A DNA stretch of 34,258 nt from Bacteroides sp. (GTDB taxonomy: Bacteria; Bacteroidota; Bacteroidia; Bacteroidales; Bacteroidaceae). Location: positions 1 to 34,258 of the forward strand of contig JAFUNS010000015.1 of assembly GCA_017472925.1 (NCBI GenBank), in the 5' to 3' direction. Made by a program: the position numbers and the translations under genes. Positions 16,797 to 33,159 of the stretch are shown one piece after another. Below the pieces are notes generated by a model. That model saw nothing but the letters and a program-made list of their open reading frames with translations, did no database searches and had not been told where the DNA came from. Position 1 is the first letter of the stretch. Each line of letters opens with the position of its first letter.

Positions 16797-17111
16797 TTAA
16801 TCCATATGGAATACTTCTGGCAATGGAATAGTTACCGGTGAATTATCAGGATTCACTTCCATAATATCGGCCATATAATCCCACCATTTTTGAACGATTG
16901 GATTATCACCCATATCTTGAGAAGAACCTTCACCTTTTGTCTTTTGACAAGCAAAAAGGATATTGGTATCCTTGTCCCAATAAATGGAATAGTCGTATAC
17001 ACCACCATCAGACAACATCTTCTTCAATTCCGGCCAAATGGCTGCATGTCTCTTTTCATATTCTTTTTCGAAGCCTGGCTTCAAAAACATTTTAAATGCT
17101 TCACGTTTCAT
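16797..17111 (-). CDS. rhaM: L-rhamnose mutarotase
   Basis: The 104-residue cytoplasmic protein (no signal peptide) interconverts the alpha and beta anomers of L-rhamnose, feeding the isomerase/kinase/aldolase pathway. The family signature is intact: Tyr18 and His22 in EYEKRHAAIWPELKKML, then GGVYDYSIYWD, and the C-terminal NPIVQKWWDYMADIM. His22 is at the position of the catalytic histidine known from the E. coli enzyme, and the length is normal for the family. It lies 28 nt after the GH105 gene and is the last gene of the operon. Its presence is strong evidence that the locus releases L-rhamnose, as expected for RG-I. No rhamnosidase or rhamnose catabolic gene is in the window. Confidence 0.95.
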   Translation of the reverse strand: MKREAFKMFLKPGFEKEYEKRHAAIWPELKKMLSDGGVYDYSIYWDKDTNILFACQKTKGEGSSQDMGDNPIVQKWWDYMADIMEVNPDNSPVTIPLPEVFHMD

Positions 17112-17139
17112 GACATCTTTATTTTAATAGGTTAATAAA

Positions 17140-18546
17140 TTATCTCTTTTCATGGAAAATAGGTGAGTTGGTTTTCTGTTCTGTAGAATAGAACTGAACA
17201 GCACTGTCATTCATCTTTGGATATTGCTTCTTTAACAGATTAATCATTTCAGCACCAGCCCAAATTACCGGACCGTATCCGTGTGCAGCAGCTACATTCA
17301 CCGGTCGATAGTAATAGAATGCCGGGTCAAATGCCATACCTGTACCTACACAAGTACCTTCAACTTGTCCCTTTTCATTGATTTGAGTAGTAATCGCATT
17401 CCAGCCCAATGTAACAACCGGTCCGTAAGCCAATGCATCAATCCATCCTTTATTGATAGCATGAGCCATACAATATACATAAATGGCAGTAGCCGAAGTT
17501 TCCAAATAAGAATCATTACGGTCAAGCAACTGATGCCACAAGCCTTCGCCACTTTGGCAAGCGGCCAGACCTCTTACATGAGCACAGAACAAATCCATAA
17601 TCTTGGCTCTTTGCGGATGGTTTTCAGGCAATACATCCAACACTTCACACATGGTGAGCAAAGCCCAACCATTGGCACGCCCCCAGTGGAATGCCGGATG
17701 GTCTTTCATTTCTTCTACCCAACCGTGACGGAACAAGTTCTTTTCAGGTACCCACATACGTTCAGCAAATTGAAGCACTTGCTTTACAGCTTCTTCCTGA
17801 TACTTCTTTTGTTCGTCACCGGCAATGCAAGAATACCATGCTACAGGAGGAATACCCATAAACATATCATCCAACCACAATGTATTGTACAACGGACGAG
17901 TACGGGCAAAAGTACCATCAGACAAACGATACTCACCATTCATAATAAAGTCCATATAATTCTGGATGAGTGCGTTCAAGTCCAATGAAGAATCTTTCAT
18001 TTGCGCCTTCACCATAGCTGCGCATACCGCACCTGCATCGTCCAAAGCACGAGGATCGAGGATTTGTCTCATTTGTCCATCTAACTTTCCACCTTCTTCC
18101 ATTATCTTACGGAAATGTGGAGCAACTTCTGCCAAGAATTTGAAACGGTCTGTTACATAATCCATATATGCCTTATCGCCGGTAGCATCAGCAGCAGCCA
18201 ACATAGCGGAGTATGTTACTCCCCATTCATAACTGGCCAAACGGAAAGTTCCGCGTTCCAATTGTGCATCAGCATCTATCTTAGTGTAATCTGTGATGAC
18301 TTCACCGGTATTCTTGTTTACCACACGGGTAGGAGTACAATCTTCCAAATAACGAAGCACTCTATCCATATCCGCCTTGATGGTTTCAACCGCAGGTACT
18401 CCATAAGGAACCTTGTAATCCGGTTGCAACAAGTGCAAAGGAGTGTTAGAGTCATTTATTTCTTCCTTTTTCTCTGTAGTAGTTGGAGCACACGATGTCG
18501 CAAGCACCAGCGCCCCCATCATTCCTAATAATCCTATTTTCTTCAT
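17140..18546 (-). CDS. GH105 unsaturated rhamnogalacturonyl hydrolase, lipoprotein
   Basis: The 468-residue product has a lipoprotein signal (LATSC, Cys19). The remainder is an (alpha/alpha)6-barrel of the GH105 family, shown by TLWLDDMFMGIPPVAWYS (Asp226/Asp227 in the region of the catalytic Asp of the family), HPAFHWGRANGWALLTMCEVLDVLP and EGLWHQLLDR. These enzymes remove the 4,5-unsaturated galacturonate that rhamnogalacturonan lyases leave at the non-reducing end. That is consistent with the PL11 lyase immediately upstream (10-nt gap). Relative to the common ~370-residue members it has a lipoprotein leader and an N-terminal extension of about 50 residues. Family assignment is firm. Confidence 0.93.
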   Translation of the reverse strand: MKKIGLLGMMGALVLATSCAPTTTEKKEEINDSNTPLHLLQPDYKVPYGVPAVETIKADMDRVLRYLEDCTPTRVVNKNTGEVITDYTKIDADAQLERGTFRLASYEWGVTYSAMLAAADATGDKAYMDYVTDRFKFLAEVAPHFRKIMEEGGKLDGQMRQILDPRALDDAGAVCAAMVKAQMKDSSLDLNALIQNYMDFIMNGEYRLSDGTFARTRPLYNTLWLDDMFMGIPPVAWYSCIAGDEQKKYQEEAVKQVLQFAERMWVPEKNLFRHGWVEEMKDHPAFHWGRANGWALLTMCEVLDVLPENHPQRAKIMDLFCAHVRGLAACQSGEGLWHQLLDRNDSYLETSATAIYVYCMAHAINKGWIDALAYGPVVTLGWNAITTQINEKGQVEGTCVGTGMAFDPAFYYYRPVNVAAAHGYGPVIWAGAEMINLLKKQYPKMNDSAVQFYSTEQKTNSPIFHEKR

Positions 18547-18556
18547 AATATCTTAT

Positions 18557-20554
18557 TTATTTAAATTCATATCCTCTAAAAACACCTTCCTTCAAATCTG
18601 CTCCAAAGTAGAAACCAGGCTGAGTAGGTTGGTTGTAAGCCACATTTTGTGTAACAATACTGATACGATATGCCGGATCTTCCAAGAACGTATGGAAACG
18701 GTAATCGGTCGGAATGGTCGAAACATATAAGCGCAATGCCGAGTTGTCTTCTGTACGATACAAAACTTCTTCACGCCAGTCACCAATTATATCAGCTTGC
18801 AAACAAGGATTGGCTTTTGTACCGTTATTCCATACCGTACCTTCAAACACTTGCAAAGGTTTACATACCTTTTCATTCCAATCATATTTGCCTACCGCAT
18901 TCTTGTCCAATAATTCACGAAGTAGGTCACCATCCCACCAAAGTCCCATATTTACAGACAGAGTTTCCATTTCAGGATTTATCACTTCACCTTTTATATT
19001 ACGGATACCATGCGATTCCCACGACCACATTTCCAGACCTGGATTAGTAGGGTCAATATCAGCAGCCATACAACGGCCCACGTCGATAGAACTCTTTACT
19101 TGGAACAACACTTCACCAGTACCTGCATCGCGGAAACTACTACCGTCTTTTTTATTTTCATGACAAGCCCACACTTGTAATCCTTCCATATCCGGGCTAA
19201 ACTTAGTCAGATGCATAGCATCACCGTGATTCATACCAGTAGAATACAATCCTGTACCATCGTGATCGATTGCACATTGACCATAAACAATTTCATCAAA
19301 TCCGTCACCATCTACATCCGCAACTCGAAGATTGTGGTTTCCTTGACCTTCGTAAGCTTCATTACCCGGTTGCTTTGTATCAAATACCCAACGTTGCTTC
19401 AATTCTTTTCCATCCCAATCGAATGCAGCCAGTACCGCACGGGTATAATAACCTCTACACATAATTACACTGGGGCGAAGACCGTCCAAATAAGCCACAG
19501 CAGCCAAATAGCGGTCTGCACGATTGGCACGATTGTCTCCCCAATCTTCCAAACGTCCACGCTGAGGAACATAGTCAATGGTTTGCATAGCCTTTCCAGT
19601 CAATCCATTGAATATAGTCAGATATTCGTTACCTGTCAAGATACGTCCTTGATTAGGAGGTGTAGGTTTACGTGGAGGCATTTGAGGTCTTCTCTGTCCC
19701 ATTTTGGCATCTCTTGGACGCATATTCTTCTTTGGTTGCGAAGCCATTTGTTGCAAACGTGCCTTCAACGCAGCTGTATCTCCCGGTTCTCTATAGTCCG
19801 CCGAAGCATCACCTATAACCGCTCCTGTACCATCTACTGTACCATCCGAAGTCTTCATTACGATTTCTGCACATCCGTCACCATCCAAGTCATACACCAT
19901 AAACTGAGTATAATGAGCGCCCGCACGGACATTCTTTCCCATATCAATACGCCAAAGCTTTTCACCAGTCAATCGATAGCAATCAAAATAAACATTACCG
20001 GTATAACCATCGTGCGCATTGTCATGAGCATTGGATGGGTCCCATTTCAAAATAATTTCATATTGTCCATCACCATCCACATCACCCATTGATGCATCAT
20101 TAGCATTGTACGTATATGTATCCCCTGCCGGAGTAACTCCTTCAGCAGGAATGTCAAGTGGAATATTCAAATATCCAAACGGAGCATTTTCGGGCAACGT
20201 ATATACACCTTCTACCGTTTCTTTTTCCTTACCATTGACAACAGCCTTTACTTCATAAAGAGTCTTTTGTGTTCCGGCATAAGTATCCTTATAGAAAGTT
20301 CCTTGGTTTGCCGGCACTTCTGCAATCTTCTCTCCATCCCGATAAACATTGAACGCAGTGTTCAACGGGTCAGAAGACAAATATCTCCAAGAGATAATTA
20401 CATGTTCCGAAGATTCTCTAACTGCTACAACCCCACGATTCAACTTGTCTTTCTGCATCTGAGGTGTAGCTTCATTACATGATTGCAATGCCAATCCGGC
20501 AAAGGCCATACAAAATGAGAGCACCAAGCTCAAGCGTTTTCTTTTGTTTTTCAT
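18557..20554 (-). CDS. PL11 rhamnogalacturonan lyase, lipoprotein
   Basis: The 665-residue product has a lipoprotein signal (LALQSC, Cys26), suggesting a surface or outer-membrane location. The N-terminal module (about 38-120) has the PL11 opening 'NRGVVAV' and VIISWRYLSSDPLNTAFNVYRDG. An eight-bladed propeller follows with calcium-type DxDGDG loops (GDVDGDGQYEI, YDLDGDGCAEI, ADVDGDGFDEI). It ends with IGDWREEVLYR and the strongly conserved PTQPGFYFG. The enzyme cleaves the rhamnose-galacturonate linkages of the RG-I backbone by beta-elimination. An unusual basic Pro/Met/Arg-rich insertion lies at about residues 256-300. The gene is 18 nt after the acetylesterase and 10 nt before GH105, in a clear operon. 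Confidence 0.94.
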   Translation of the reverse strand: MKNKRKRLSLVLSFCMAFAGLALQSCNEATPQMQKDKLNRGVVAVRESSEHVIISWRYLSSDPLNTAFNVYRDGEKIAEVPANQGTFYKDTYAGTQKTLYEVKAVVNGKEKETVEGVYTLPENAPFGYLNIPLDIPAEGVTPAGDTYTYNANDASMGDVDGDGQYEIILKWDPSNAHDNAHDGYTGNVYFDCYRLTGEKLWRIDMGKNVRAGAHYTQFMVYDLDGDGCAEIVMKTSDGTVDGTGAVIGDASADYREPGDTAALKARLQQMASQPKKNMRPRDAKMGQRRPQMPPRKPTPPNQGRILTGNEYLTIFNGLTGKAMQTIDYVPQRGRLEDWGDNRANRADRYLAAVAYLDGLRPSVIMCRGYYTRAVLAAFDWDGKELKQRWVFDTKQPGNEAYEGQGNHNLRVADVDGDGFDEIVYGQCAIDHDGTGLYSTGMNHGDAMHLTKFSPDMEGLQVWACHENKKDGSSFRDAGTGEVLFQVKSSIDVGRCMAADIDPTNPGLEMWSWESHGIRNIKGEVINPEMETLSVNMGLWWDGDLLRELLDKNAVGKYDWNEKVCKPLQVFEGTVWNNGTKANPCLQADIIGDWREEVLYRTEDNSALRLYVSTIPTDYRFHTFLEDPAYRISIVTQNVAYNQPTQPGFYFGADLKEGVFRGYEFK

Positions 20555-20572
20555 GATATCTATATATAATAA

Positions 20573-22228
20573 TTATTTCAAATAACCGGCCAACGGACAA
20601 TCTACCGCTTTCAAACCTTCGGTTATACTTTCAGCATTCAGTTTGGCTCCTTTCAAAGAAGTATGAGTATGGTCTCTCTTGAAATATTCTCCAACCAAAC
20701 GCAACCCCTTTTCATAACCTATTTCCTGCAACTTATCTGCTGTTATCTGATTTAAATCCACATAATAGGCACCAGTTGCTTCTGCTGCAGCTTTTGTCCA
20801 AGTTCCGAACGATGATGTATTGCGGATAATCTTACCATTATCCCACATGTTACGAGGAGTATGACTCAATACAATAGGAATAGCTCCCTTTTCCTGTGCA
20901 TCGCGGATAAACTTACGCAAATACCAGCCAAACGTATAAATTACCTGATATTTACCAGTTTTTTCCATCAAGTACACCTTACTTTCATCACCAGCACCTT
21001 TCAACTCACCACGGGCTTTACCCACATTGATATCACCTATATCATTATGACCGAACTGAATCAGTACAAAATCACCGGGTTGCAAAGCATTGTATACCTT
21101 ATCCCAACGACCTTCGTCCAAGAATGTACGGGCACTACGACCGGCCATCGCATGATTTTCAACGGTTATACGATTCAAATCGAACAATTCATGAATCACA
21201 CTTCCCCAACCCCACATATCATCCGGATTCTTATCAGCATTCTTTACAGTACTGTCACCAATAGTGAACAATACTGGGCAACCTTTTTTACGTGAAGCGC
21301 CTGTTATAGTATCTTTTTCAACCGGTTTCAAATATTTGGCCAATTTCAAGCCTTTGCAATTACGGATACCTTCTGCTGCGGATTCTGCATTGACACGAGC
21401 ACCGAATGCACTGGTATGGATTCTATCCAAATAAAACATAGTCTTTACCTTTTCCTTACCGAACTTTTCAAACTTCTGTGCGGTAATTTCATTCAAGTCA
21501 ATGAAAGGAATGCGTTCCTTCTTGGCCACTTGCTTGGACCACAAACCGTATGTTTTGTTCACACGGGTGATGATGGTACTATCGGCATCTTCCCAGGCAT
21601 TACGCGGCGTAAGCGACATCAATATCGGGTAAGCACCTTTTGCTTTAATGTCACGGATATACTTGCGCATATATTCACCAAATGTATACACCGTTTCTTG
21701 TACTCCGGTTTCCTTAATGGTAACATCCAATGTTTCCTTTCCAATGCCAGGAATGGAAGCACGGGCACGTCCGCTGTCATAAGGGCCATTGTCATTATGT
21801 CCCAATTCGATAATAACCCAGTCACCTTTGCGGATTCCTTTCAACACATCCGGCCACAAACGATTATAGAAAGTACGGCTACTGGTTCCCCCCAACGCAT
21901 GATTTTCTACGGTTATTTGGTTTTCATCAAAATATTCCTGAGCATAATATCCCCAACCCCATTGACCGTTATTACCGTTACCCAAGGTACCGGTACGCAT
22001 AGTCGAGTTACCTACCAAGAACAACACCGGATTATCCCCCTTACGACTGGAGCCAGCTTCCGGGCGAACCGTGCGGGCCTTATTCAAGCTATCCAGAGTA
22101 TTATCTATTACCAAATTCACGTCCTTCATCGGACCAGCCACTTTTTTCTGGGCATTCATAGTCATAGTGCCTACACACAACAAACAAAAGGCACTTAAAA
22201 ACGCAACTTTTTTCATGGTGTTTTTCAT
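20573..22228 (-). CDS. Tandem-domain rhamnogalacturonan acetylesterase (CE12 x 2)
   Basis: The 551-residue product has a signal peptide (cleavage near TMNA|QK) and two SGNH/CE12 esterase domains. Domain 1 (about 68-305) has VGNSTM (Ser75), LGHND and DRIHTS. Domain 2 (about 318-545) has IGDSTV (Ser326), FGHND and DHTHTS. Each domain thus keeps the Ser, the GHND block and the Asp-His pair, but domain 1 has Asn instead of Asp in the first GDS block. CE12 enzymes remove acetyl groups from galacturonate in RG-I so that the lyase can act. This is the first gene of the RG-I backbone operon, with a promoter immediately in front. A second in-frame ATG (22216, giving MKKVAF) is a possible alternative start. 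Confidence 0.93.
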   Translation of the reverse strand: MKNTMKKVAFLSAFCLLCVGTMTMNAQKKVAGPMKDVNLVIDNTLDSLNKARTVRPEAGSSRKGDNPVLFLVGNSTMRTGTLGNGNNGQWGWGYYAQEYFDENQITVENHALGGTSSRTFYNRLWPDVLKGIRKGDWVIIELGHNDNGPYDSGRARASIPGIGKETLDVTIKETGVQETVYTFGEYMRKYIRDIKAKGAYPILMSLTPRNAWEDADSTIITRVNKTYGLWSKQVAKKERIPFIDLNEITAQKFEKFGKEKVKTMFYLDRIHTSAFGARVNAESAAEGIRNCKGLKLAKYLKPVEKDTITGASRKKGCPVLFTIGDSTVKNADKNPDDMWGWGSVIHELFDLNRITVENHAMAGRSARTFLDEGRWDKVYNALQPGDFVLIQFGHNDIGDINVGKARGELKGAGDESKVYLMEKTGKYQVIYTFGWYLRKFIRDAQEKGAIPIVLSHTPRNMWDNGKIIRNTSSFGTWTKAAAEATGAYYVDLNQITADKLQEIGYEKGLRLVGEYFKRDHTHTSLKGAKLNAESITEGLKAVDCPLAGYLK

Positions 22229-22693: not shown

Positions 22694-24808
22694 TTACCAA
22701 CCTTCATTCTGCCATTTTGCTTTTTCTGCGTCAGACAAGTTGTTACCGTTTTCATCCTGCAAAGCATCAATGAATGTTTGAGGAATCGGACGACGGTTAT
22801 GTCTGTCTTGTACATTAGCAGCTGCTTCTGGATTGAATGCCTTGGCACGCTTCACCAATGTTTCTGTACGAGCCAATTCTTCCCAACGATTCCATTCACC
22901 CAAACATTCGCGGGTACGTTCGTTCAAGATGAAGTGAATCATACGTTCCTTATCACCGCTTGCACCAATTGCAGACAAGATAGCTTCGTCTTCAGCTGGA
23001 AGTTGGGTATAGCTTGCAATCTGCAAGTTAGAAGCTTCAGTAGTACGCTCAATACCGGTTGATAAGTAGTAAGAGCTTTTCTGTGGGAATGAATACTTGA
23101 ATGCCTGACGGTTAGTCATAATTGTACCGTCTTTCTCCTTGTTCTTCTTTGGAGGAGTTGCATCTGCTGTAGAGTTGTCAGAGTCGCCACCGTATTCCTT
23201 CAAGAATGCCATAGAACCGTCTGTATAGTATTCACGGTCTTCACCGGCTTTCCATTCAGCACGCTTACGAAGTGCATTAACGGTATTGATAGCTTCTTGA
23301 TATTGTCCCAAACGAACTTGAGCTTCGGCCTTAATCAAGTAAGTTTCACCAGTACGGGCCATGATAACATCGCGGTGAGCATCACCCTTTTCAGCGGTAC
23401 GGCTACCGTCTTCTGTCTTGTTGATACCGCAGAATACGTTAGATGTAGCAGTGTTACCACTTACACCGTAATTATACATTGCATATTGACCACCGAGGTA
23501 AGTCGGGAATACATTGGGTACCCACTTTCCGGTTTCAGGATGTACGAAAGTATGTTCCACTGCACCACGGCCGAAAGTACCGTAAGTGGTTTCATCTTGG
23601 AAACGGGGGTCGTCCTTCTTGTTCAAGATAAACACGATACCATAGTCACCCATTTCAGGTACATTTTCAGCTGCGACATAATCAGGAGCTCCTACCCAAT
23701 GGTTGATACCGATAATAGTCTTGAATGTCTTCCACATACGGGCATCATTTACATTATCGAATGATGCATATGCATATTCGGTAGGACGGCAACGCTGGAA
23801 GTCCATACCACCAATGTATTGGCCACGTTGTACCCAACCGCCTGAGAAATTAGAGAATTGCGGAGTAAAATAGTTATAAGTACGGTTACCATAACGACCT
23901 GTTGCAGAAGATGTGTGTTGACAAGACATCAAGATTTCATCCAAATCTTCGTTGGCACAATCAATACCGGTCCACTTAGCATATAAATCATTATAATCGG
24001 CAGCCAATGGACAAGCCTGAATAACCTCGTTACACAAAGTTACAGCCTTGTTCAAATCAGCATCAGCCGGATAAGAACTGTTGAAATCGCTACAACGTTC
24101 TGATTGACGATAAAGCAAAGCCTTAGCTAAGAAGTGAGCGGCAGTATACTTGGTCCAAGTACCTGTTCCACGCCATTTATCTATTGGCAACAAATTATAA
24201 GCTTGTTCAAAGTCGGCAATCACCTGATTAATCATTTCTTCTTCAGTAGCACGAGTAAAGGTCTTTACTACACCTTCAGTAGCTTGTAACTGCAATACGG
24301 CAGCACCGTATTGGGCAAACAGACGATAATAGTTGTAGCCACGGAGGAAGTAGGCTTCGCCCAAACATTTGTTACGAATAGCTTCATCTGTTACACGGTC
24401 AGCATAAGTGATGATGGTATTTGCTGTAGAAATACCGTAATACATTTGATCCCACAAACCGGATACCGGAGGACAGTTCTTATTGGCTGCACCATTGGCT
24501 GTTGTACAGTCCATGGATTGCAAACGGCTGTCGTATGTATTCCAAGGTTCGGCTGTCAAGTCGGAACCGTTGGTAAATTCATCACATCCGTAAAGAGTAA
24601 TACCGTATGCCCATTCGTAACCGAAGTGCCAACGAATATTGGCATAAAGGGCAGTAGCCAAATCCTGCATACCTTGGGCACTCTCAAAATATTGAGTGGT
24701 ATAAGCGGTACGGTTGTCTTCTTCCAAGAAGCCATCACCGCATGAAGTGAAACCGGTCATTGCTGCAACGACCAAGCCCGCTGTAAGAAATTTGTTATAT
24801 CTTTTCAT
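22694..24808 (-). CDS. SusD-like glycan-binding lipoprotein (SusD1)
   Basis: This 704-residue protein is exported as a lipoprotein (TGFTSC, Cys23). It has the RagB/SusD TPR architecture, including the CLGEAYFLRGYNYYRLFAQYG helix and the C-terminal domain ending in RRPIPQTFIDAL. It caps the SusC1 barrel on the cell surface and captures oligosaccharides. It is longer than the common 500-600 residues; the extra length includes a loop with CxxQ and DNSTADATPPKKNKEKDG. It is a close paralogue of SusD2, sharing RWHFGYEWAYGITLYG, DLTAEPWNTYD and ANKNCPPVSGLW. It follows SusC1 by 47 nt. The DNA just before its ATG has three tandem TATAGAA copies, where SusD2 has one. Confidence 0.95.
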   Translation of the reverse strand: MKRYNKFLTAGLVVAAMTGFTSCGDGFLEEDNRTAYTTQYFESAQGMQDLATALYANIRWHFGYEWAYGITLYGCDEFTNGSDLTAEPWNTYDSRLQSMDCTTANGAANKNCPPVSGLWDQMYYGISTANTIITYADRVTDEAIRNKCLGEAYFLRGYNYYRLFAQYGAAVLQLQATEGVVKTFTRATEEEMINQVIADFEQAYNLLPIDKWRGTGTWTKYTAAHFLAKALLYRQSERCSDFNSSYPADADLNKAVTLCNEVIQACPLAADYNDLYAKWTGIDCANEDLDEILMSCQHTSSATGRYGNRTYNYFTPQFSNFSGGWVQRGQYIGGMDFQRCRPTEYAYASFDNVNDARMWKTFKTIIGINHWVGAPDYVAAENVPEMGDYGIVFILNKKDDPRFQDETTYGTFGRGAVEHTFVHPETGKWVPNVFPTYLGGQYAMYNYGVSGNTATSNVFCGINKTEDGSRTAEKGDAHRDVIMARTGETYLIKAEAQVRLGQYQEAINTVNALRKRAEWKAGEDREYYTDGSMAFLKEYGGDSDNSTADATPPKKNKEKDGTIMTNRQAFKYSFPQKSSYYLSTGIERTTEASNLQIASYTQLPAEDEAILSAIGASGDKERMIHFILNERTRECLGEWNRWEELARTETLVKRAKAFNPEAAANVQDRHNRRPIPQTFIDALQDENGNNLSDAEKAKWQNEGW

Positions 24809-24855: not shown

Positions 24856-27800
24856 TTAGAATCCTAATTGTACACCGAAGGTTACACCACGGTTGTAGTA
24901 AGTAGTACCCAAGTCGAGGTCGATAAAGTCAACTGAAGAATAGAGGTTACCGAGGTTCTTGCCTTGTGCATAAACCTTCAAGGAACCGATACCCAACTTA
25001 CTGCATACGTTCTTCGGGAAATTGTAACCTAAAGAGATGTTACGGACCTTAATGAACGAAGCATCTTTGAAACCTAACAATGCAGAGTAAGAGTCACCAC
25101 CGGCAGTACTATAAACCGGCTTTTGCCATTCAGCATCGGTATTGTCAGGAGTCCAGTAGTCGATTTCACGCTGGGCGTACATACCCAACTGGCCTTCACC
25201 ACCAGTACTAATCATATAACCAAAGCGGCCATACAAATCAACGGTCAATTCCAAACCTTTCCATGCGAAAGTATTGCTCCAACCGCCTATCCAATTAGGA
25301 TTCTTGTTACCCAAAATCACACGGTCTTCGTCATCAATCTTATAGTCACCGTTTTGGTCAACCGGGCGAACGCTACCGGCGGAGAACTTATGGCCGTTTT
25401 CATTGAATTTAGCCATTTCTGCAGCATCTTCTTCCTGCCACAAACCGGCATTGTCGATACCATAATGTAAGAAGATAGATTCACCGATAAACCATGCATT
25501 GGCAATATCATCTACTTTACCGTTGGACAATTCTACGATTTCGTCCTTTGAATATGACATATTCAATGTAGAGCTCCATTCAAAGTCCTTAGTCTGTACC
25601 GGAATGACATTTAAAGTCAAATCCACACCGAAATTTTTGGTCTTACCAATATTGGCATTGATATTTGGGAAACCTGTTAAAGTAGGAATCTTCATAGACA
25701 TCAGCAAATCCTTGGTAGAAGAATGGTAAATATCCAATGTACCGTTGATACGTCCGTTCAAGAAACCGAAATCAACCCCGTAGTTCCACTGAGTAGTTTT
25801 TTCCCAAGTCAATTCTTTATTGGCCATACCTACAGAAGAAGAAGTATAATATGGCTCATTAGTGGCATAAGCTTGAGTCAATACACCTCCGAAAGGTACG
25901 AAGAATGATTGGATATTACCCAAAGTACCATAAGCTGGAACAGCTTCATTACCGGTAGTACCTACACCCATACGAAGCTTCAATTGGCTAACCCAATTCA
26001 CATCTTTCATGAATTCTTCCTGGTCAATACGCCAACCAAATGCCATAGAAGGGAAGAATGCCCATTTGTTACCGGCTGCCAATTGAGAAGCACCGTCGTA
26101 ACGGCCTGAAGCTGTCAACAAGTATCTATCCTTATAGGAATAGTTTACACGGGCCATGTAAGAAGCCATGGCTCTTTCTGTCAAACCTGTACCCATGCCT
26201 GCACCATAAGTAGCAGCATCTGTAATATCTACAGACCCCATGTTGTACCACCAGAAGTGTTCATTAGGAATGGCATTGGCGCTCATACTACCGCTTTCCT
26301 TACTATATTTAGAAGCACTCTGAATCAAGGTAAGACCGAAGTTATGATCACCAATTACCTTATTATAATTAATCATATTATCCCATACCCAAGAGAAATA
26401 GGTATCGTTGCCATACTTGGCATAGTTCTTACTACCCATCTTTACGGCAGAATCCTTGCTGATAAAGATACCTTGACGATAGTTGCGGAAGTCAGGACCG
26501 AATGAAGTCTTGAAAGTCAAACCTTCCAATGGTTCCCAAATCTTTCCGAAGTCTACTTGTGCATAGAATGATCCGAGTGCACGGAAAGTCTTGCGGTTAT
26601 CGGTAGACTTGGTCCATTCATCAATTACGGTATATACGTTAGTTACAGAACCGGCAGGGTTAGTAATAATACCACCTTCATCATTATAAGGAACTGCAAA
26701 ACGAGGAATTGCCTTAGAAGCCGAATAAATATCTACCGGACCAGAAGAAGAAGATTGGCCTGTACGAGAGTAACCATAGTCTTGAATAGCATAAGAAGCG
26801 TTGATAGAACCACCCATTTTGAACCAAGGCTTGGCTTGGATATCTACAGTTGCTGATATATTATAACGTTCATATTCCTGACCTTTCTGAGTACCTTGGT
26901 TGTTCAAATAACCTACAGAGAACGAAGCCTGCATCTTTTCAGTACCACCGTTAGCACTCAAGGTGTGTTCGTGAGTGATACCTGTACGTGTTACGAAATC
27001 AGCCCAATCTGTATTGCTAACCTTAGAGCCATCCCAACTACCACCTGACCAACCTTTCATTACGTTGGCAGTTGCGAATGGGTCATCACCACCAAAGTAG
27101 TCGGCATCCTTAGTTTGAGAAGGCTGGTCACCACGTGGATTGTTCACAGGGTCGGCATTGTGATAAGCCCAACGACGCCATGTGATATAATCGCTTGCGC
27201 TCATGGCCGGAGACTTGTCCACCAAGTTTTCCATTGTCACAGTACCCGAGTAGTTCAACTGAAGAACACCTTCCTTACCACGCTTGGTTGTTACCAAAAC
27301 AACACCGTTCGCACCACGTGCACCATAAATAGCTGTAGAAGAAGCATCCTTCAAGATGTTAATGCTTTCGATGTCACGAGGGTTGATAGATTCAATACCA
27401 CCAGCACTCAAGATAACACCATCCACTACATACAGCGGTTGATTTTGATCTTTATTCAAAGAACGGCTACCACGAATAAGGATAGAACCTACAGTACCCG
27501 GACGTTCGCTGGATGTAATATCTACACCGGCAGCCTTACCTTGCAATGCTTCAAAAGCATTGGCTACTGGACGAGCATTCAATTTTTCACTGTCTACGCT
27601 AACCAACGCACCGGTAACGTCAGATTTTTTCTGTACACCATAACCTACAACAACAACTTCGTCGAGCATTTCAGTATCTTCAACTAAAGTTACCTTAACG
27701 GTCGATTTTCCGGCAACGGAAATGTCTTGAGTTTTGTAACCCACGAAGCTGATTTGAATAGTTCCGTTTGAAGGAACACCCTGAAGAGAGAAATTACCGT

Positions 27801-28005
27801 CGAAATCGGTAATTGTACCGTTGGTAGTACCTTTCACTACCACACTTGCACCAATAACGGGCTCACCGGCCTTGTCGACAACAGTACCCGATACAGATTT
27901 GCTTTGTGCACTGGCTGTAATGGCCAATACTGAGAACAAAGCAACAAAGAACAATTGCTGGACTTTGCCCAAACAATTAAACAGAGAAGTCTTTCTGTTC
28001 TTCAT
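24856..28005 (-). CDS. SusC-like TonB-dependent outer-membrane transporter (SusC1)
   Basis: The 1049-residue product has a signal peptide ending in TASAQ (about residue 33) and a CarboxypepD_reg-like domain (about 36-112, GEPVIGASVVVKGTTNG). Next come the TonB-box/plug start (EVVVVGYGVQKK), the plug with the PLYVVDGV and STAIYGARGANGVVLVTTKRG motifs, and a 22-strand barrel ending in the typical aromatic C-terminus GVQLGF. It imports oligosaccharides together with SusD1, which follows on the same transcript. It is a paralogue of SusC2 (very similar along its length by eye). The DNA around its start is almost identical to that of SusC2 in inverted orientation. A consensus promoter lies about 110-140 bp upstream. 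Confidence 0.96.
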   Translation of the reverse strand: MKNRKTSLFNCLGKVQQLFFVALFSVLAITASAQSKSVSGTVVDKAGEPVIGASVVVKGTTNGTITDFDGNFSLQGVPSNGTIQISFVGYKTQDISVAGKSTVKVTLVEDTEMLDEVVVVGYGVQKKSDVTGALVSVDSEKLNARPVANAFEALQGKAAGVDITSSERPGTVGSILIRGSRSLNKDQNQPLYVVDGVILSAGGIESINPRDIESINILKDASSTAIYGARGANGVVLVTTKRGKEGVLQLNYSGTVTMENLVDKSPAMSASDYITWRRWAYHNADPVNNPRGDQPSQTKDADYFGGDDPFATANVMKGWSGGSWDGSKVSNTDWADFVTRTGITHEHTLSANGGTEKMQASFSVGYLNNQGTQKGQEYERYNISATVDIQAKPWFKMGGSINASYAIQDYGYSRTGQSSSSGPVDIYSASKAIPRFAVPYNDEGGIITNPAGSVTNVYTVIDEWTKSTDNRKTFRALGSFYAQVDFGKIWEPLEGLTFKTSFGPDFRNYRQGIFISKDSAVKMGSKNYAKYGNDTYFSWVWDNMINYNKVIGDHNFGLTLIQSASKYSKESGSMSANAIPNEHFWWYNMGSVDITDAATYGAGMGTGLTERAMASYMARVNYSYKDRYLLTASGRYDGASQLAAGNKWAFFPSMAFGWRIDQEEFMKDVNWVSQLKLRMGVGTTGNEAVPAYGTLGNIQSFFVPFGGVLTQAYATNEPYYTSSSVGMANKELTWEKTTQWNYGVDFGFLNGRINGTLDIYHSSTKDLLMSMKIPTLTGFPNINANIGKTKNFGVDLTLNVIPVQTKDFEWSSTLNMSYSKDEIVELSNGKVDDIANAWFIGESIFLHYGIDNAGLWQEEDAAEMAKFNENGHKFSAGSVRPVDQNGDYKIDDEDRVILGNKNPNWIGGWSNTFAWKGLELTVDLYGRFGYMISTGGEGQLGMYAQREIDYWTPDNTDAEWQKPVYSTAGGDSYSALLGFKDASFIKVRNISLGYNFPKNVCSKLGIGSLKVYAQGKNLGNLYSSVDFIDLDLGTTYYNRGVTFGVQLGF

Positions 28006-28035
28006 ACTTTAATTATTAAGTTAAACAAAAGTTAA
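27893..28035 (-). repeat. Inverted repeat, left arm, spanning the SusC1 start
   Basis: Read on the minus strand, these 143 bp match 29986-30128 on the plus strand with only three mismatches (opposite 30048, 30054 and 30090). The first 62 bp are identical and include 30 bp upstream of the ATG, so the identity cannot be explained by protein conservation alone. It codes for the SusC signal peptide and first mature residues. Confidence 0.9.
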
Positions 28036-28113
28036 TTAATCTCTTTCCCAGGAGATGAAGCACGCTCCACCTGTGAAAACATGTTGCAAAATTAAAGGAC
28101 TTTTTAAAATATG

Positions 28114-28144
28114 CAAATATAGAATCGTACAAAAAACATGGAAA
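28114..28144 (-). promoter_or_regulatory. Promoter of SusC1/SusD1
   Basis: On the minus strand TATATTTG (28114-28121) matches TAnnTTTG fully, and TTTC (28141-28144) lies exactly 19 bp upstream in the -33 position. Transcription would start near 28107, giving a leader of about 100 nt. The promoter lies outside the inverted-repeat arm, inside the segment that would invert. Confidence 0.7.
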
Positions 28145-28304
28145 TATTGGTCTAATAGCCCTCTGAAGCTGTTAAAAAGCGGATACTGTATCAAAAAGTG
28201 CAGTCAAAAGAGCATTTTGATTAATATTTTTAAAACCCTTCCAATCTGTCAAAAGCTTTCTTGAATAAAAGGAAGGGATGCAATAGAATGTAGATGAAAA
28301 GGAC

Positions 28305-28312
28305 TATTTTTG
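28305..28312 (+). promoter_or_regulatory. Possible -7 element of the recombinase gene
   Basis: TATTTTTG is a full match to TAnnTTTG, but no -33 element is seen at the right distance. It would start transcription near 28319, downstream of the ATG at 28294. If used, translation must start at the ATG at 28348. Confidence 0.35.
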
Positions 28313-28347
28313 CTATCATTCGATTGTTAACACTAAAATTTTTGATT

Positions 28348-29526
28348 ATGGCTACATTATCCATTGTAATTGTTCCTGGGAAGGAAATGTTGGACGGTAG
28401 AAACAGAATTCGTATTGCCGTGGCACATCGAGCGAAAACCCGCTACATCTCTACCCAATTTATTTTGGATTCCCCTAAGCAGTTAAAGAACGGCAGAGTG
28501 GTAAAACACGAAAATGCGGAAAACATCAATGTCGCATTGAGAAGACTTATTTATGAATACGAAGAAATTCTGTCGACCACCGGATATCTTTCTTCCCTCT
28601 CTTGTACAGAAGTGGTTCATTTGCTGCAACGCAAACGGGAACGGGGAGGACGTTCTTTTGGAAGTGTGTTGAAAGAGTATCTGTTAGACATGGATACGGA
28701 AGATCGGAAAAAGTCTCTTAAACTATATAGTATAGCAGGGAACAAATTGATAAAATTCATGAAGGGAGACTTCCCGCTGATTGCTTTGTCGCCCACTCAT
28801 ATTGAAGAGTTTCGTAGACGAATGGAAAAAGACAAACTATCTCCCACTTCCATCCGTATTTACCTTACATTAATTAAGGTTGTTCTAAACTATGCGATCA
28901 AGATGAATTACGTAAACTATCAAGTACATCCCTTCATCCTATCTAAGATGCCCGCTTCGCACGTTCGTGAAATAGACCTGACTACCGAGGAAATCAAAAA
29001 AATACGTGATGTTGAATTATCCAATCCAAGCCATATCTATACCCGTGATGCCTTTATGCTGACTTATTATTTGGGTGGCATTAACCTGCGCGATTTGATG
29101 GAACACAATTTCATGCACCAAACAGAAATGAAGTACATACGCCACAAAACCCACCAAAGCCGAAGAGGTGGTAATTTGATTCATTTTACCATCCAACCCG
29201 AAGCCCAAGCGATTATAAACAAGTATATGCGGAAAGATGGCCTGTTAGCGTTTGGCCCATTCAGTGGTTATGAGAGGACATATAGCTTAATATATCGGAA
29301 TTTGCAGAAAGTAGCCAATCAGGCAGGTATCCAACGGAAGGTTTCCTACTATGCGGCTCGCAAGAGCTTTGCCCAGCATGGTTATCTGTTAGGGATACAA
29401 ATAGAACGAATAGAATACTGTATCGGCCATAGCATGAAGTCCAACCGGCCTATATTCAACTACATTCGTATCATGCACGAACAGGCCGATAGGGTATTCC
29501 GTATGATACTTGATAGTATTTTATAA
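28348..29526 (+). CDS. Tyrosine recombinase (site-specific integrase family)
   Basis: From the ATG at 28348 the product has 392 residues. It opens with an arm-type DNA-binding domain (about 1-85, RNRIRIAVAHRAKTRYIST), then a SAM-like core-binding domain (about 100-195, with LSPTHIEEFRRRMEKDKLS) and the catalytic domain. The catalytic set is visible: Arg248 (GGINLRDL), Lys267 (IRHKTH), Arg338 (YYAARKSF, with Tyr in the usual His position three before Arg), His361 (GHSMK) and nucleophile Tyr372 (FNYIRI). An upstream ATG (28294) would add 18 hydrophobic residues that do not belong to the family. It sits between two divergent susC genes with inverted-repeat 5' ends and is the obvious candidate to invert that DNA. 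A generic mobile-element integrase is the alternative. Confidence 0.92.
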   Translation: MATLSIVIVPGKEMLDGRNRIRIAVAHRAKTRYISTQFILDSPKQLKNGRVVKHENAENINVALRRLIYEYEEILSTTGYLSSLSCTEVVHLLQRKRERGGRSFGSVLKEYLLDMDTEDRKKSLKLYSIAGNKLIKFMKGDFPLIALSPTHIEEFRRRMEKDKLSPTSIRIYLTLIKVVLNYAIKMNYVNYQVHPFILSKMPASHVREIDLTTEEIKKIRDVELSNPSHIYTRDAFMLTYYLGGINLRDLMEHNFMHQTEMKYIRHKTHQSRRGGNLIHFTIQPEAQAIINKYMRKDGLLAFGPFSGYERTYSLIYRNLQKVANQAGIQRKVSYYAARKSFAQHGYLLGIQIERIEYCIGHSMKSNRPIFNYIRIMHEQADRVFRMILDSIL

Positions 29527-29590
29527 GTCTTCGAGGTGAATTCTATAAAGGAATACCCTGCAAAGTCTATCAATGGCCGATAAATCCTTT

Positions 29591-29670
29591 GTACTCCACC
29601 GCAGTACAATCAAACTGAACTGAAGTACTATCGTACTACGGTGGAGTTTAATCGTACTGCGGTGGAGTAC
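29591..29670. repeat. 17-bp perfect inverted repeat plus a third internal copy
   Basis: GTACTCCACCGCAGTAC (29591-29607) is the exact reverse complement of 29654-29670. The match extends on the inner side to 26 bp with two mismatches. A third, 15-bp copy (29633-29647, one mismatch) lies in direct orientation to the right arm. It begins 64 bp past the recombinase stop codon. It may be a binding site for the recombinase, an operator, or a transcript-end structure. Confidence 0.85.
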
Positions 29671-29794
29671 GAATAAATAAAAGGCTCTACTTGATGAATT
29701 TTATTCAATCAAATCCTTAATATACAAGGAATTATAAATTTATTTCGCTTTTATATCCTTTATCCCGATGACTTGATTAGAATGGTGTTTTTGG

Positions 29795-29848
29795 AAAGTG
29801 TGTAGGTAAAGTGTGTAGGTAACTTGCTTACACACTTTACCTACACAC
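29795..29848. repeat. 20-bp perfect inverted repeat on a 13-bp tandem duplication
   Basis: AAAGTGTGTAGGT occurs twice in tandem (29795-29807, 29808-29820). The 20 bp at 29798-29817 are exactly complementary to 29829-29848, with an 11-nt loop. No T-run follows on either strand, so it is not a standard terminator. Confidence 0.88.
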
Positions 29849-29936
29849 CTTAACTCATTGAATATCAGTATCGAGTGTAAGATGCAAGTAAAATCGGAAA
29901 AAACTATTTGTGGGAAGAACATTTTATTGTACAATC

Positions 29937-30000
29937 CAGCTAACTTTTGTTTAAATAAATCGGGGAATTTTCCCTTTCTGTTCAGTTAACTTTTGTTTAA
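29937..30000 (+). repeat. 18-bp direct repeat ahead of SusC2
   Basis: CAGCTAACTTTTGTTTAA (29937-29954) recurs 46 bp later with one mismatch (29983-30000). The inner 14 bp also occur in inverted orientation ahead of SusC1 (28021-28034). The second copy reads AGTTAA-7 nt-TTAACT at 29984-30002, a small dyad inside the repeat arm. Confidence 0.8.
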
Positions 30001-30128
30001 CTTAATAATTAAAGTATGAAGAACAGAAAGACTTCTCTGTTTAATTGCTTGGGTAAAGTCCAGCAATTGTTCTTTGTTGCTTTGTTCTCTGTATTGGCCA
30101 TTACAGCCAGTGCACAAAGCAAATCTGT
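29986..30128 (+). repeat. Inverted repeat, right arm, spanning the SusC2 start
   Basis: This is the partner of 27893-28035: 140 of 143 bp are identical and the first 62 bp perfectly so, including 30 bp before the ATG. A further block, 30166-30248, matches SusC1 at 81 of 83 bp, while the 37 bp between the two blocks are clearly diverged. Confidence 0.9.
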
Positions 30129-33100
30129 TTCGGGTACCGTTATTGACAAAACTGGTGAACCCGTAATTGGTGCAAGTGTAGTAGTGAAAGGTACTACCAA
30201 TGGTACAATTACCGATTTCGACGGTAATTTCTCTCTTCAGGGTGTTCCCAATGATGGAACTATTCAAATCAGCTTCGTGGGTTACAAGACTCAAGATGTT
30301 TCTGTAGCTGGTAAGACTACTATCAAAGTAACTTTGGTAGAAGATACAGAAATGTTGGACGAAGTGGTAGTTGTAGGTTATGGTGTTCAGAAAAAGACTG
30401 ACGTAACCGGTGCCTTGACACGTGTAGATGCAGAACAATTGAACTCACGTCCTGTAAGTAACGCATTCGAAGCATTGCAAGGTAAAGCTGCCGGTGTGGA
30501 CATTACATCTAACGAACGTCCGGGTGAACTTGGTTCTATCCGCATTCGTGGTACTCGTTCTTTGAATGCTTCCAGCTCTCCTCTTTATGTAGTGGACGGT
30601 GTGCCCTTGAGTTCAGGTGGTATCGAAGCTTTGAACCCACGTGATATTGAATCTATCGACATTTTGAAGGATGCTTCTTCTACTGCTATCTACGGTTCTC
30701 GTGGTGCGAACGGTGTTGTATTGATTACAACCAAGCGCGGTAAGACTGGTGCTTTGGCATTGAATTACAATGGTTCTCTTACTCTGGAAAACTTGGTGGA
30801 TAAGTCACCGGCCATGAGCGCAAGCGATTATATCACATGGCGCCGTTGGGCTTACCACAACTCAAATCCTTCTGCTAATCCACGCGGCGACCAACCTGAT
30901 ATGGAAAAGGATAAAGGCTATTTCAATGGTGATGATGCTGCAATGGCTAATATCATGAAGGGTTGGAGTGGTTCAACTTGGGACGGTTCTAAAGTAACCG
31001 ATACAGACTGGACAGATATGGTAACCCAAACAGGTGTTACTCACGAACATACATTGAGTGCAAGTGGTGGTAACGAAACCACTCAAGCTTTCATTTCTGC
31101 CGGTTATTTGAGCAATAAAGGTACTCAAAAGGGGCAAGAATACGAACGCTTCAACGTTTCTATGTCTGTTGACGTTCAAGCCAAGCCATGGTTGAAAATG
31201 GGCGGTTCTATCAACGCATCTTATGCTGTTCAGGATTATGGCTATTCTCGTACTGGCCAATCTTCTTCTTCTGGTCCTACTGATATCTATGGTGCAGCCA
31301 AGGCTATTCCACGCTATACCGTTCCTTACGATGAAAATGGTGATCTTATCCTTCAGCCAGGTGGTTCTACAACCAATGTATATACTGTAGTAGATGAATG
31401 GAAGAAATCACAAGATAATCGTCAGACATACCGTGCACTCGGTTCATTCTATGCACAAGTAGACTTCGGTAAGATTTGGGAACCATTGGAAGGCTTGTCA
31501 TACAAGTTTGCTTTCGGTCCTGACTTCCGTTATCGCCGACATGGTATTTTCATTGACAGCTCTTCAGCTGTTAAAATGGGTTCTGCCAACTATGCAAGTT
31601 GGGCTTCTAACCGCTATTTCTCTTGGACATTGGATAATATGGTAATGTACAACAAGAAATTCGGTGAACACAATTTGGGCGTAACATTACTCCAAAGTGC
31701 TTCTAAGTACAATGCTGAAAATGCAAGCATGAGCGAACAAAATGTATTGGTTCCTGAATTCTTGTGGAACAACATGGGCTTGATTGACCTTACTAACTCT
31801 ACTAAGTATAAAGCTGGTATGGGCACAGGTAAGAGCGAAAATCAAATGGCTTCTTACATGGCTCGTATAAACTATTCATACAAAGATCGTTACTTGTTGA
31901 CTGTATCAGGTCGTTATGATGGTTCTTCTGTATTGGCCGAAGGTAACAAGTGGGCATTCTTCCCATCTGCAGCTCTTGGTTGGCGTTTGGACCAAGAAGA
32001 ATTCATGAAGGATATTGAATGGATTGAACAATTGAAAGTTCGTGTAGGTATGGGTGTAACTGGTAACTCAGCAGTAGGTGCTTATGGTACTCTCGGTGTT
32101 ATTTCAGCTTATTGGATGCCGTTCTCTACAGGTAATACACAGATTTTCGTAACCAATGAACCTTATTATACTTCTGGTAGCAACAAGATGCCTAATAAGG
32201 AATTGAGTTGGGAAAAGACTACTCAGTTCAACTATGGTGTTGACTTCAGTTTCTTGAAAGGCCGCTTGGGTGGTACATTGGATATCTATACATCTCGTAC
32301 AACAGACTTGTTGATGACTCGTACCATTCCTGCTTTGACAGGTTATCCTTCAATCATGTCCAATATCGGTGAAACCAAGAACTTTGGTATTGAATTGACA
32401 TTGAATACTATTCCTGTTCTTGTAAACGGATTTGAATGGGCTTCAGATTTGAACTTCGCTTATCAGAAGGACGAAATCGTAGAATTGGCTTATGGTAAGC
32501 AAGATGACATCAACAACAGTTGGTTCATTGGCGAATCTATCGCAGTACACTACGGTATTGAAAACGATGGTTTGTGGCAAGAAAGTGATGCTGCAGAAAT
32601 GGCTAAGTTCAATGAAAACGGAACTAAATTCGAACCAGGTATGGTTAAACCGGTTGACCAAAATGGCGACTATAAGATTGACAGCAACGACCGTGTAATC
32701 TTAGGTAATAAGAATCCTAACTTCACTATGGGTTGGAGCAACCGCTTCACTTGGAAGGGCTTGGAATTGGCCGTTGAACTTTACGGACGCTTCGGTTATA
32801 TGGTAAGCACAGGTGGTGAAGGTCAGTTGGGTATGTATCAACAGCGTGAAATCGACTACTGGACTCCAGACAACACTGACGCTGAATGGCAAAAGCCTAT
32901 CTACAGCCAGGCTGGTGGTGACGCTTATTCAAGTTTGCTCGGTTTCAAGGATGCTTCATTCATCAAATTGCGTAACTTGTCTTTAGGTTACAACATTCCT
33001 AAGAACATTTGCAGCAAGATGGGTATCAGCACATTGAAGGTTTATGTACAAGGCAAGAACTTGGGTAATATCTATTCTTCAATCGACTTCTTGGATCTCG

Positions 33101-33159
33101 ACTTGGGTACCACATTCTACAACCGCGGTGTAACATTCGGTTTGCAAGTTGGATTTTAA
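30016..33159 (+). CDS. SusC-like TonB-dependent outer-membrane transporter (SusC2)
   Basis: The 1047-residue product has the same build as SusC1: a signal peptide to about residue 33, a CarboxypepD_reg-like domain, the EVVVVGYGVQKK plug start, PLYVVDGVPLSSGG, STAIYGSRGANGVVLITTKRG, and a barrel ending in GLQVGF. The first 35 residues are identical to those of SusC1. Differences are spread through the plug and barrel, for example the 'SQTKDADYFGG' versus 'DMEKDKGYFNG' loop, which suggests a related but not identical ligand. It forms a pair with SusD2, 38 nt downstream. No consensus promoter is visible in front in the present orientation, so it may be the silent partner of the proposed switch. 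Confidence 0.96.
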   Translation: MKNRKTSLFNCLGKVQQLFFVALFSVLAITASAQSKSVSGTVIDKTGEPVIGASVVVKGTTNGTITDFDGNFSLQGVPNDGTIQISFVGYKTQDVSVAGKTTIKVTLVEDTEMLDEVVVVGYGVQKKTDVTGALTRVDAEQLNSRPVSNAFEALQGKAAGVDITSNERPGELGSIRIRGTRSLNASSSPLYVVDGVPLSSGGIEALNPRDIESIDILKDASSTAIYGSRGANGVVLITTKRGKTGALALNYNGSLTLENLVDKSPAMSASDYITWRRWAYHNSNPSANPRGDQPDMEKDKGYFNGDDAAMANIMKGWSGSTWDGSKVTDTDWTDMVTQTGVTHEHTLSASGGNETTQAFISAGYLSNKGTQKGQEYERFNVSMSVDVQAKPWLKMGGSINASYAVQDYGYSRTGQSSSSGPTDIYGAAKAIPRYTVPYDENGDLILQPGGSTTNVYTVVDEWKKSQDNRQTYRALGSFYAQVDFGKIWEPLEGLSYKFAFGPDFRYRRHGIFIDSSSAVKMGSANYASWASNRYFSWTLDNMVMYNKKFGEHNLGVTLLQSASKYNAENASMSEQNVLVPEFLWNNMGLIDLTNSTKYKAGMGTGKSENQMASYMARINYSYKDRYLLTVSGRYDGSSVLAEGNKWAFFPSAALGWRLDQEEFMKDIEWIEQLKVRVGMGVTGNSAVGAYGTLGVISAYWMPFSTGNTQIFVTNEPYYTSGSNKMPNKELSWEKTTQFNYGVDFSFLKGRLGGTLDIYTSRTTDLLMTRTIPALTGYPSIMSNIGETKNFGIELTLNTIPVLVNGFEWASDLNFAYQKDEIVELAYGKQDDINNSWFIGESIAVHYGIENDGLWQESDAAEMAKFNENGTKFEPGMVKPVDQNGDYKIDSNDRVILGNKNPNFTMGWSNRFTWKGLELAVELYGRFGYMVSTGGEGQLGMYQQREIDYWTPDNTDAEWQKPIYSQAGGDAYSSLLGFKDASFIKLRNLSLGYNIPKNICSKMGISTLKVYVQGKNLGNIYSSIDFLDLDLGTTFYNRGVTFGLQVGF

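Follow-up and report, generated by a model that had tools for sequence, protein, structure and literature searches.

A probable self-contained DNA inversion switch between two SusC/SusD importer operons in a Bacteroides genome

The question raised by the locus described here is whether two divergent importer operons are switched by inversion of the DNA that lies between them. The window, meaning the whole stretch of 34,258 nucleotides that was analysed, is contig JAFUNS010000015.1 (C64) of the Bacteroides sp. assembly GCA_017472925.1, a genome of 2.8 Mb in 79 contigs with 79.7% completeness. Two susC/susD pairs (susC1/susD1 and susC2/susD2) point away from each other. As the first-pass annotation had described, and as coordinates and arm alignment confirmed, the starts of both susC genes lie within a 143-bp inverted repeat with 3 mismatches, the first at base 63, leaving 62 perfect base pairs of which 30 are non-coding. 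The sole gene between them is a complete tyrosine recombinase, the only open reading frame of at least 90 amino acids wholly inside, and intact. Very probably the locus is a self-contained inversion switch, in which the recombinase flips a single-promoter segment and thereby alternates the two importer operons. The parts of this proposal that can be read from sequence are a recombination core, a recombinase group, opposite orientations in relatives and a one-sided promoter motif.

A scan of genome contigs for recombinase relatives gave 33 loci, and L033 (= L020), L037 (= L022) and L044 (= L024) were removed as duplicates. For each locus, the left end on the 5' side of the recombinase is called A and the right, opposite end is called B. 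Both arms could be located in 16 loci, and in every one of these they join in variants of a 19-bp core, TAACTTTTGTTTAACTTAA, immediately outside the start codons. Full identity of the arms extended over as little as 24 bp (L039), and the arms of L038 were 92% alike over 26 bp. Within the genome of the window, only two exact copies of the core were observed, both at the repeat arms, and its 14-mer TAACTTTTGTTTAA occurred 3 times in the window with at most 1 mismatch, against 0.04 expected (100 shuffles). The additional partial core at 29941, also present in L020, came from a scan allowing 2 mismatches, for which the reversed control likewise gave 2 genome matches.

To compare orientations, the loci were aligned by recombinase direction and the outside flanks were then matched between genomes. 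One-flank matches between groups, at 66-80% identity, were excluded from the orientation groups (for example L064_B/window_B, 80% on the same side; L021_B/L043_A, 71%; L020_B/L023_A, 75%); L042 and L064, with one-flank matches only, were uncounted, and L039 had no flank match to the other loci. Both orientations were observed in four of the six groups of comparable loci, with up to 99% flank identity and the crossover at the core: L034 and L035 versus L036, L038 versus L040 and L041, L043 versus L060, and L023 versus L024. The same orientation was shared by the window and L020, L021 and L022, L034 and L035, and L040 and L041. Between L034 and L036 both flanks had changed sides (9577 nt matching at 99%, 4734 nt at 87%) around an interior of 1860 bp at 98%, and the crossover fell in the interval from the last base ahead of the core to base 13 past it. 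Between L023 and L024, 8093 nt matched at 99% on one flank, the other flank lying beyond the contig, and the crossover fell in the interval from base 7 ahead of the core to base 4 past it; inward of the core L024 matched L023_A at 146/150 positions, and outward of the core it matched L023_B at 100/100 versus L023_A at 71/100. Of the two-part counter-case named by the first-pass annotation, the part on related genomes, one orientation in all of them, is therefore false for the family.

These breakpoints bear on the explanation that the repeat is merely what remains of a susC/susD duplication, its copies held similar by gene conversion or by constraint on the protein, with no site-specific inversion. 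The repeat sits within longer paralogy (582 bp at 86%, the two susC/susD pairs being about 75% identical across 4.3 kb), and plain gene duplication accounts for some of its coding part; synonymous divergence was also low across the first 100 codons of L020 and L064, with a slighter effect in the window, 400 identical bp occur in genome G008, and alike 5' ends that reach into coding sequence point to conversion. However, the non-coding edge of the repeat is sharp, and only 24-61 bp around the core still match in relatives with dissimilar cassettes (L021, L034, L036, L038-L041, L043 and L060). Simple duplication as a full explanation was rejected because the match contracts to the same core wherever the cassettes differ, and relatives in opposite orientations with breakpoints at the core contradict it for the family, which makes this explanation very improbable.

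For the recombinase, homologues suggest Met at 28348 as the start. Lys285, Arg356, His379 and Tyr390 are present, Tyr353 replaces the His of HxxR, and Asn264 stands at the aligned position of the first catalytic Arg; since Asn is found there in 33/33 alignment rows, the active site appears to be unusual but constant. Recombinase relatives were found in 11 of 61 genomes of the genus (E <=1e-30), which includes Phocaeicola vulgatus ATCC 8482 (G060; NC_009614.1), and in 12 of the 399 genomes of the family sample used for the recombinase and core scans (E <=1e-85), and none were found in a scan of viral contigs and plasmids (E <=1e-40). Among the neighbour-checked loci, from which L067-L073 (38-44% identity) were set aside, relatives at about 50% identity or more adjoin outward susC/susD or related surface cassettes, and none below about 48% lies between divergent susC genes, L032 and L050 having a susC or fragment some kilobases off. 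In a tree of 34 recombinases, which leaves out L060 and L061 with frames split into short pieces and in which L050 (susC fragment near the edge) was labelled 'other' by hand, the 16 beside outward susC/susD-type cassettes formed one group with support 100/100.

Several single loci were recorded beside this group. The recombinase frame is split at L060:10013-11193 and L064:9899-10907, where the switches may be locked or the assemblies in error. Recombinases at 41-43% in L025, L026 and L027 adjoin not susC but a set of genes whose lengths are similar across the three loci. L042 lies on a contig labelled Bacilli, probably through a binning error, and has the same recombinase and core.

The pairing of core and recombinase bears on a further explanation, in which the susC repeats invert the segment through homologous (RecA-type) recombination and the recombinase is incidental. 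Long repeats in several loci (582 bp in the window, 451 bp in P. vulgatus) and cores near susC without a detected recombinase in some genomes would fit it, but in L043/L060 and L034/L036, two pairs in opposite orientation, no more than 42-56 bp of the arms are alike. Within 1 mismatch, the core was found in 15/399 family genomes (reversed control, 1/399), being carried by 6/6 with a recombinase at about 50% identity or more and by 0/6 with only more distant recombinases (E <=1e-85). Homologous recombination as the driver is accordingly given hardly any credence.

As to what a flip would change, TAnnTTTG is the Bacteroides -7 promoter motif. Within 160 nt of the core it was observed at 14/17 A ends and 0/16 B ends, and all 14 motif-bearing A ends have a copy 58-61 nt from the core; mononucleotide shuffles of the 40-100 nt stretch gave a mean of 1.1 for A ends and 0.6 for B ends. 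The segment could also invert with promoters at both ends, in which case a flip would swap regulators and not ON and OFF states. A promoter unlike TAnnTTTG could serve the B ends, and the A-end motif is itself missing in three loci, but the absence of the motif from every B end speaks against two promoters, and we regard this arrangement as unlikely. Better folding than all 20 shuffles was observed for 11/16 B ends, but also for 6/17 A ends, the window being in both sets and real ends being scanned at a finer step than shuffles; hairpins are thus commoner at the B end and not exclusive to it. One possible role of the B-end hairpins is to keep transcription of the recombinase gene from running on into susC2. 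For the promoter leader, a candidate conserved RNA hairpin that seemed promising on inspection was dropped after folding (z 0.06 in the window, -0.9 to -2.1 in four relatives). Separately, in window 29974-30030, a 10-bp stem can form between CTTTCTGTTC of the B end and GAACAGAAAG at the susC2 start (stretch z -1.65), which could hide the susC2 start codon.

In the proposed switch, the recombinase, encoded within the segment, would recombine two inverted cores of about 20-30 bp, each starting some 30 bp ahead of the start codon in one of the two outward operons. Because the crossover would lie so near the start codons, the upstream regulatory elements would belong to the segment, and inversion would have to swap the upstream region. 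One outward Bacteroides-type promoter would lie at the recombinase-5' end of the segment, the opposite end being without that motif and, in the window, carrying strong hairpins. With one promoter per segment, flipping would alternate the two operons, and the cell would make either importer 1 with the rhamnogalacturonan I (RG-I) operon or importer 2; from the position of the motif, the RG-I side is predicted to be ON in the present assembly. Recombinase action on the core, flipping in the present strain, promoter activity and exclusive expression are the predicted parts of this scheme.

Several observations weigh against the switch. The first-pass annotation held that the recombinase flips a segment of about 1.95 kb; inverted relatives with breakpoints at the core agree with this, but the group of the window (2 genomes, the window and its closest relative L020) has a single orientation, as do L021 and L022. 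No other contig of its own genome (79.7% complete) has a core within 2 mismatches, and no inverted copy was found there. The compared loci share descent, so the counts are not independent. In 9/15 core-carrying family genomes there is no recombinase relative at E <=1e-85, and six of these nine (L098-L103), inspected with G066, G095 and G283 (1 mismatch each) set aside, have susC-type genes in the fetched stretch and no recombinase relative there. At the segment ends, 4/16 B ends are shorter than 160 nt, the -7 motif is missing at the A ends of L023, L024 and L042 though L023 and L024 are mutually inverted, and an exact TTTG 17-22 nt upstream of the 58-61 nt motif occurs only in the window and L043, while in L064 it lies at that distance upstream of another motif.

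Solitary cores near susC were recorded at L098:9954, L099:9890, L100:9873 and L101:9995, with no recombinase relative in the fetched 20 kb, and are possible relics. At L102:1 (genome G028, contig C41), the first base of the contig is the first base of the core, which could arise from an assembler meeting both orientations.

Table 1. Features of the window, with positions counted from its first nucleotide
Feature	Position	Strand	Basis or remark
Hybrid sensor kinase/regulator, candidate locus activator (putative)	9538-13794	-	matches below curated cut-offs
RG-I genes downstream of susD1: rhamnose mutarotase, GH88-family hydrolase, PL11 lyase, GDSL esterase	16797-22228	-	family scans
susD1	22694-24808	-	PF07980/PF14322
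susC1	24856-28005	-	TIGR04056; predicted ON in present assembly
Left arm of 143-bp inverted repeat, 3 mismatches	27893-28035	-	sequence comparison
Left (A) core TAACTTTTGTTTAACTTAA, 10 bp ahead of susC1 start codon	28016-28034	-	exact match; variants in all located arms
Predicted invertible segment between cores, ~1.95 kb	28035-29986	.	homologous segments inverted between related genomes
-7 motif TAATTTTG facing susC1	28087-28094	-	motif scan; TTTG (-33) at 28114-28117, spacer 19
Tyrosine recombinase, 410 aa, probable start 28348	28294-29526	+	PF13102 SAM-like domain; XerA/XerD-like below curated cut-offs
Strong hairpin, B end	29588-29673	.	-51 kcal/mol, z -10.3
Second strong hairpin, B end	29798-29848	.	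-38 kcal/mol, z -8.1
Additional partial core, 2/19 mismatches, first 14 exact, 46 bp inside B core	29941-29959	+	core scan
Right arm of 143-bp inverted repeat	29986-30128	+	sequence comparison
Right (B) core, inverted copy, 10 bp ahead of susC2 start codon	29987-30005	+	exact match; variants in all located arms
susC2	30016-33159	+	TIGR04056; predicted OFF in present assembly
susD2, truncated by contig end	33198-34258	+	PF14322

The coordinates of the locus and its cargo genes are collected in Table 1. The susC1 side further holds two GH2 enzymes and a GH35-type enzyme, and SusC/SusD, an RG-I lyase, an unsaturated-uronyl hydrolase family, GH2 and a regulator are found there together, as in an RG-I polysaccharide utilization locus. 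The RG-I enzyme set proposed by the first-pass annotation therefore holds for the susC1 side (PL11, GH88, GDSL, GH2, GH35-type, mutarotase), and the susC2 side was judged from relatives, for which family scans of flanking genes covered 27 selected proteins of relatives and 1 of the window. The B flank of L064 matches that of the window at 80% over 4291 nt, and its gene after susD encodes a PL22-type oligogalacturonate lyase; L020 has PL22-type (read in the duplicate L033) and GH88-family genes after susD. Because of these genes, both importers probably serve pectin fragments, the second importer of the window by analogy with its relatives, as the contig ends in susD2. In P. vulgatus ATCC 8482, the recombinase-5'-side susC is interrupted by a DDE transposase gene (L022:12423-13328).

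The core and recombinase might also act as a cassette platform that acquires, loses or swaps importer operons at its direct and inverted cores, the 5' module staying constant and the barrels varying, a reading that we think doubtful. In G008 (L096:16236; L097:736, 12459, 14260), a third core, in direct orientation to the left core, lies 11.7 kb from the switch and precedes a third susC; counted from the core, its initial 400 bp are identical to those of the opposite susC. P. vulgatus and G008 are colinear at 96-97% on both sides, with the middle cassette missing in P. vulgatus; a single clean deletion does not account for this, since the neighbouring susC/susD proteins are themselves only 64% and 52% identical across the two genomes. 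In L034 (11601-20320) and L036, one cassette is without the susC/susD that is present at that place in L035; the core there leads a PL22, PL11, PL11, PcRGLX-type operon, and the two genomes are nonetheless opposite in orientation. The two cases suggest such a platform, recombinase-driven gain or loss being a proposal.

Among known switches, the flagellar switch Hin has a serine recombinase and one outward promoter, while the enzyme of the window belongs to the tyrosine family by profile matches. One likeness is the single outward promoter, which is predicted here; another is the placement of the recombinase gene inside its own invertible segment, which is described for Hin in Salmonella (PMC5903667). 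Unlike Hin, the present segment is predicted to serve the operons on its two sides alternately. Tsr0667 of B. fragilis is a tyrosine recombinase, whose SusC/SusD inversions were reportedly described by Nakayama-Imaohji et al. in 2009 and whose repeats follow the consensus AGTYYYN4GDACT. The window has 9 matches to this consensus with at most 1 mismatch, against 8.4 expected, and none at the arms. Like the proposed system, Tsr0667 is a DNA invertase of phase-variable SusC/SusD clusters, but it acts on three such clusters and nine other regions (PMC4747536), whereas here the core is found at one locus only in its own genome (79.7% complete). Invertible SusC/SusD loci are thus already known in B. 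fragilis; as far as tested, the present system departs from the Tsr0667 precedent in its site and in its local, Hin-like arrangement.

The S-layer (BT1927) and capsule of B. thetaiotaomicron have invertible promoters with the repeat CCGTTACCTABVRAGTAAC (PMC12118408, PMC12548429), and resemble the present locus, as predicted, in a promoter between inverted repeats near an integrase gene and in governing a surface structure. Their S-layer repeat had no match at the arms with up to 3 mismatches and one chance-level match at 10665. In a defined gut community, inverton group 131 lies near TonB-receptor and RagB/SusD genes (PMC11892184) and is likened here by description only, as invertible DNA predicted to regulate a TonB-dependent receptor/SusD. 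Inversions near susC/susD have been reported to differ between patients and controls (PMC10939037). Searches of open-licence literature turned up the B. fragilis and general precedents and, in the papers and passages that they covered, no description of the present core or locus.

Such a switch would be compact and specific to its locus, and it has relatives in cultured, named species, Phocaeicola vulgatus ATCC 8482 among them. If the switch is real, sister cells would use different importers, probably for pectin fragments, and the choice of importer as a bet on substrate, phage or immunity would become directly testable, the predicted recombination site and promoter needed for locking the switch now being named.

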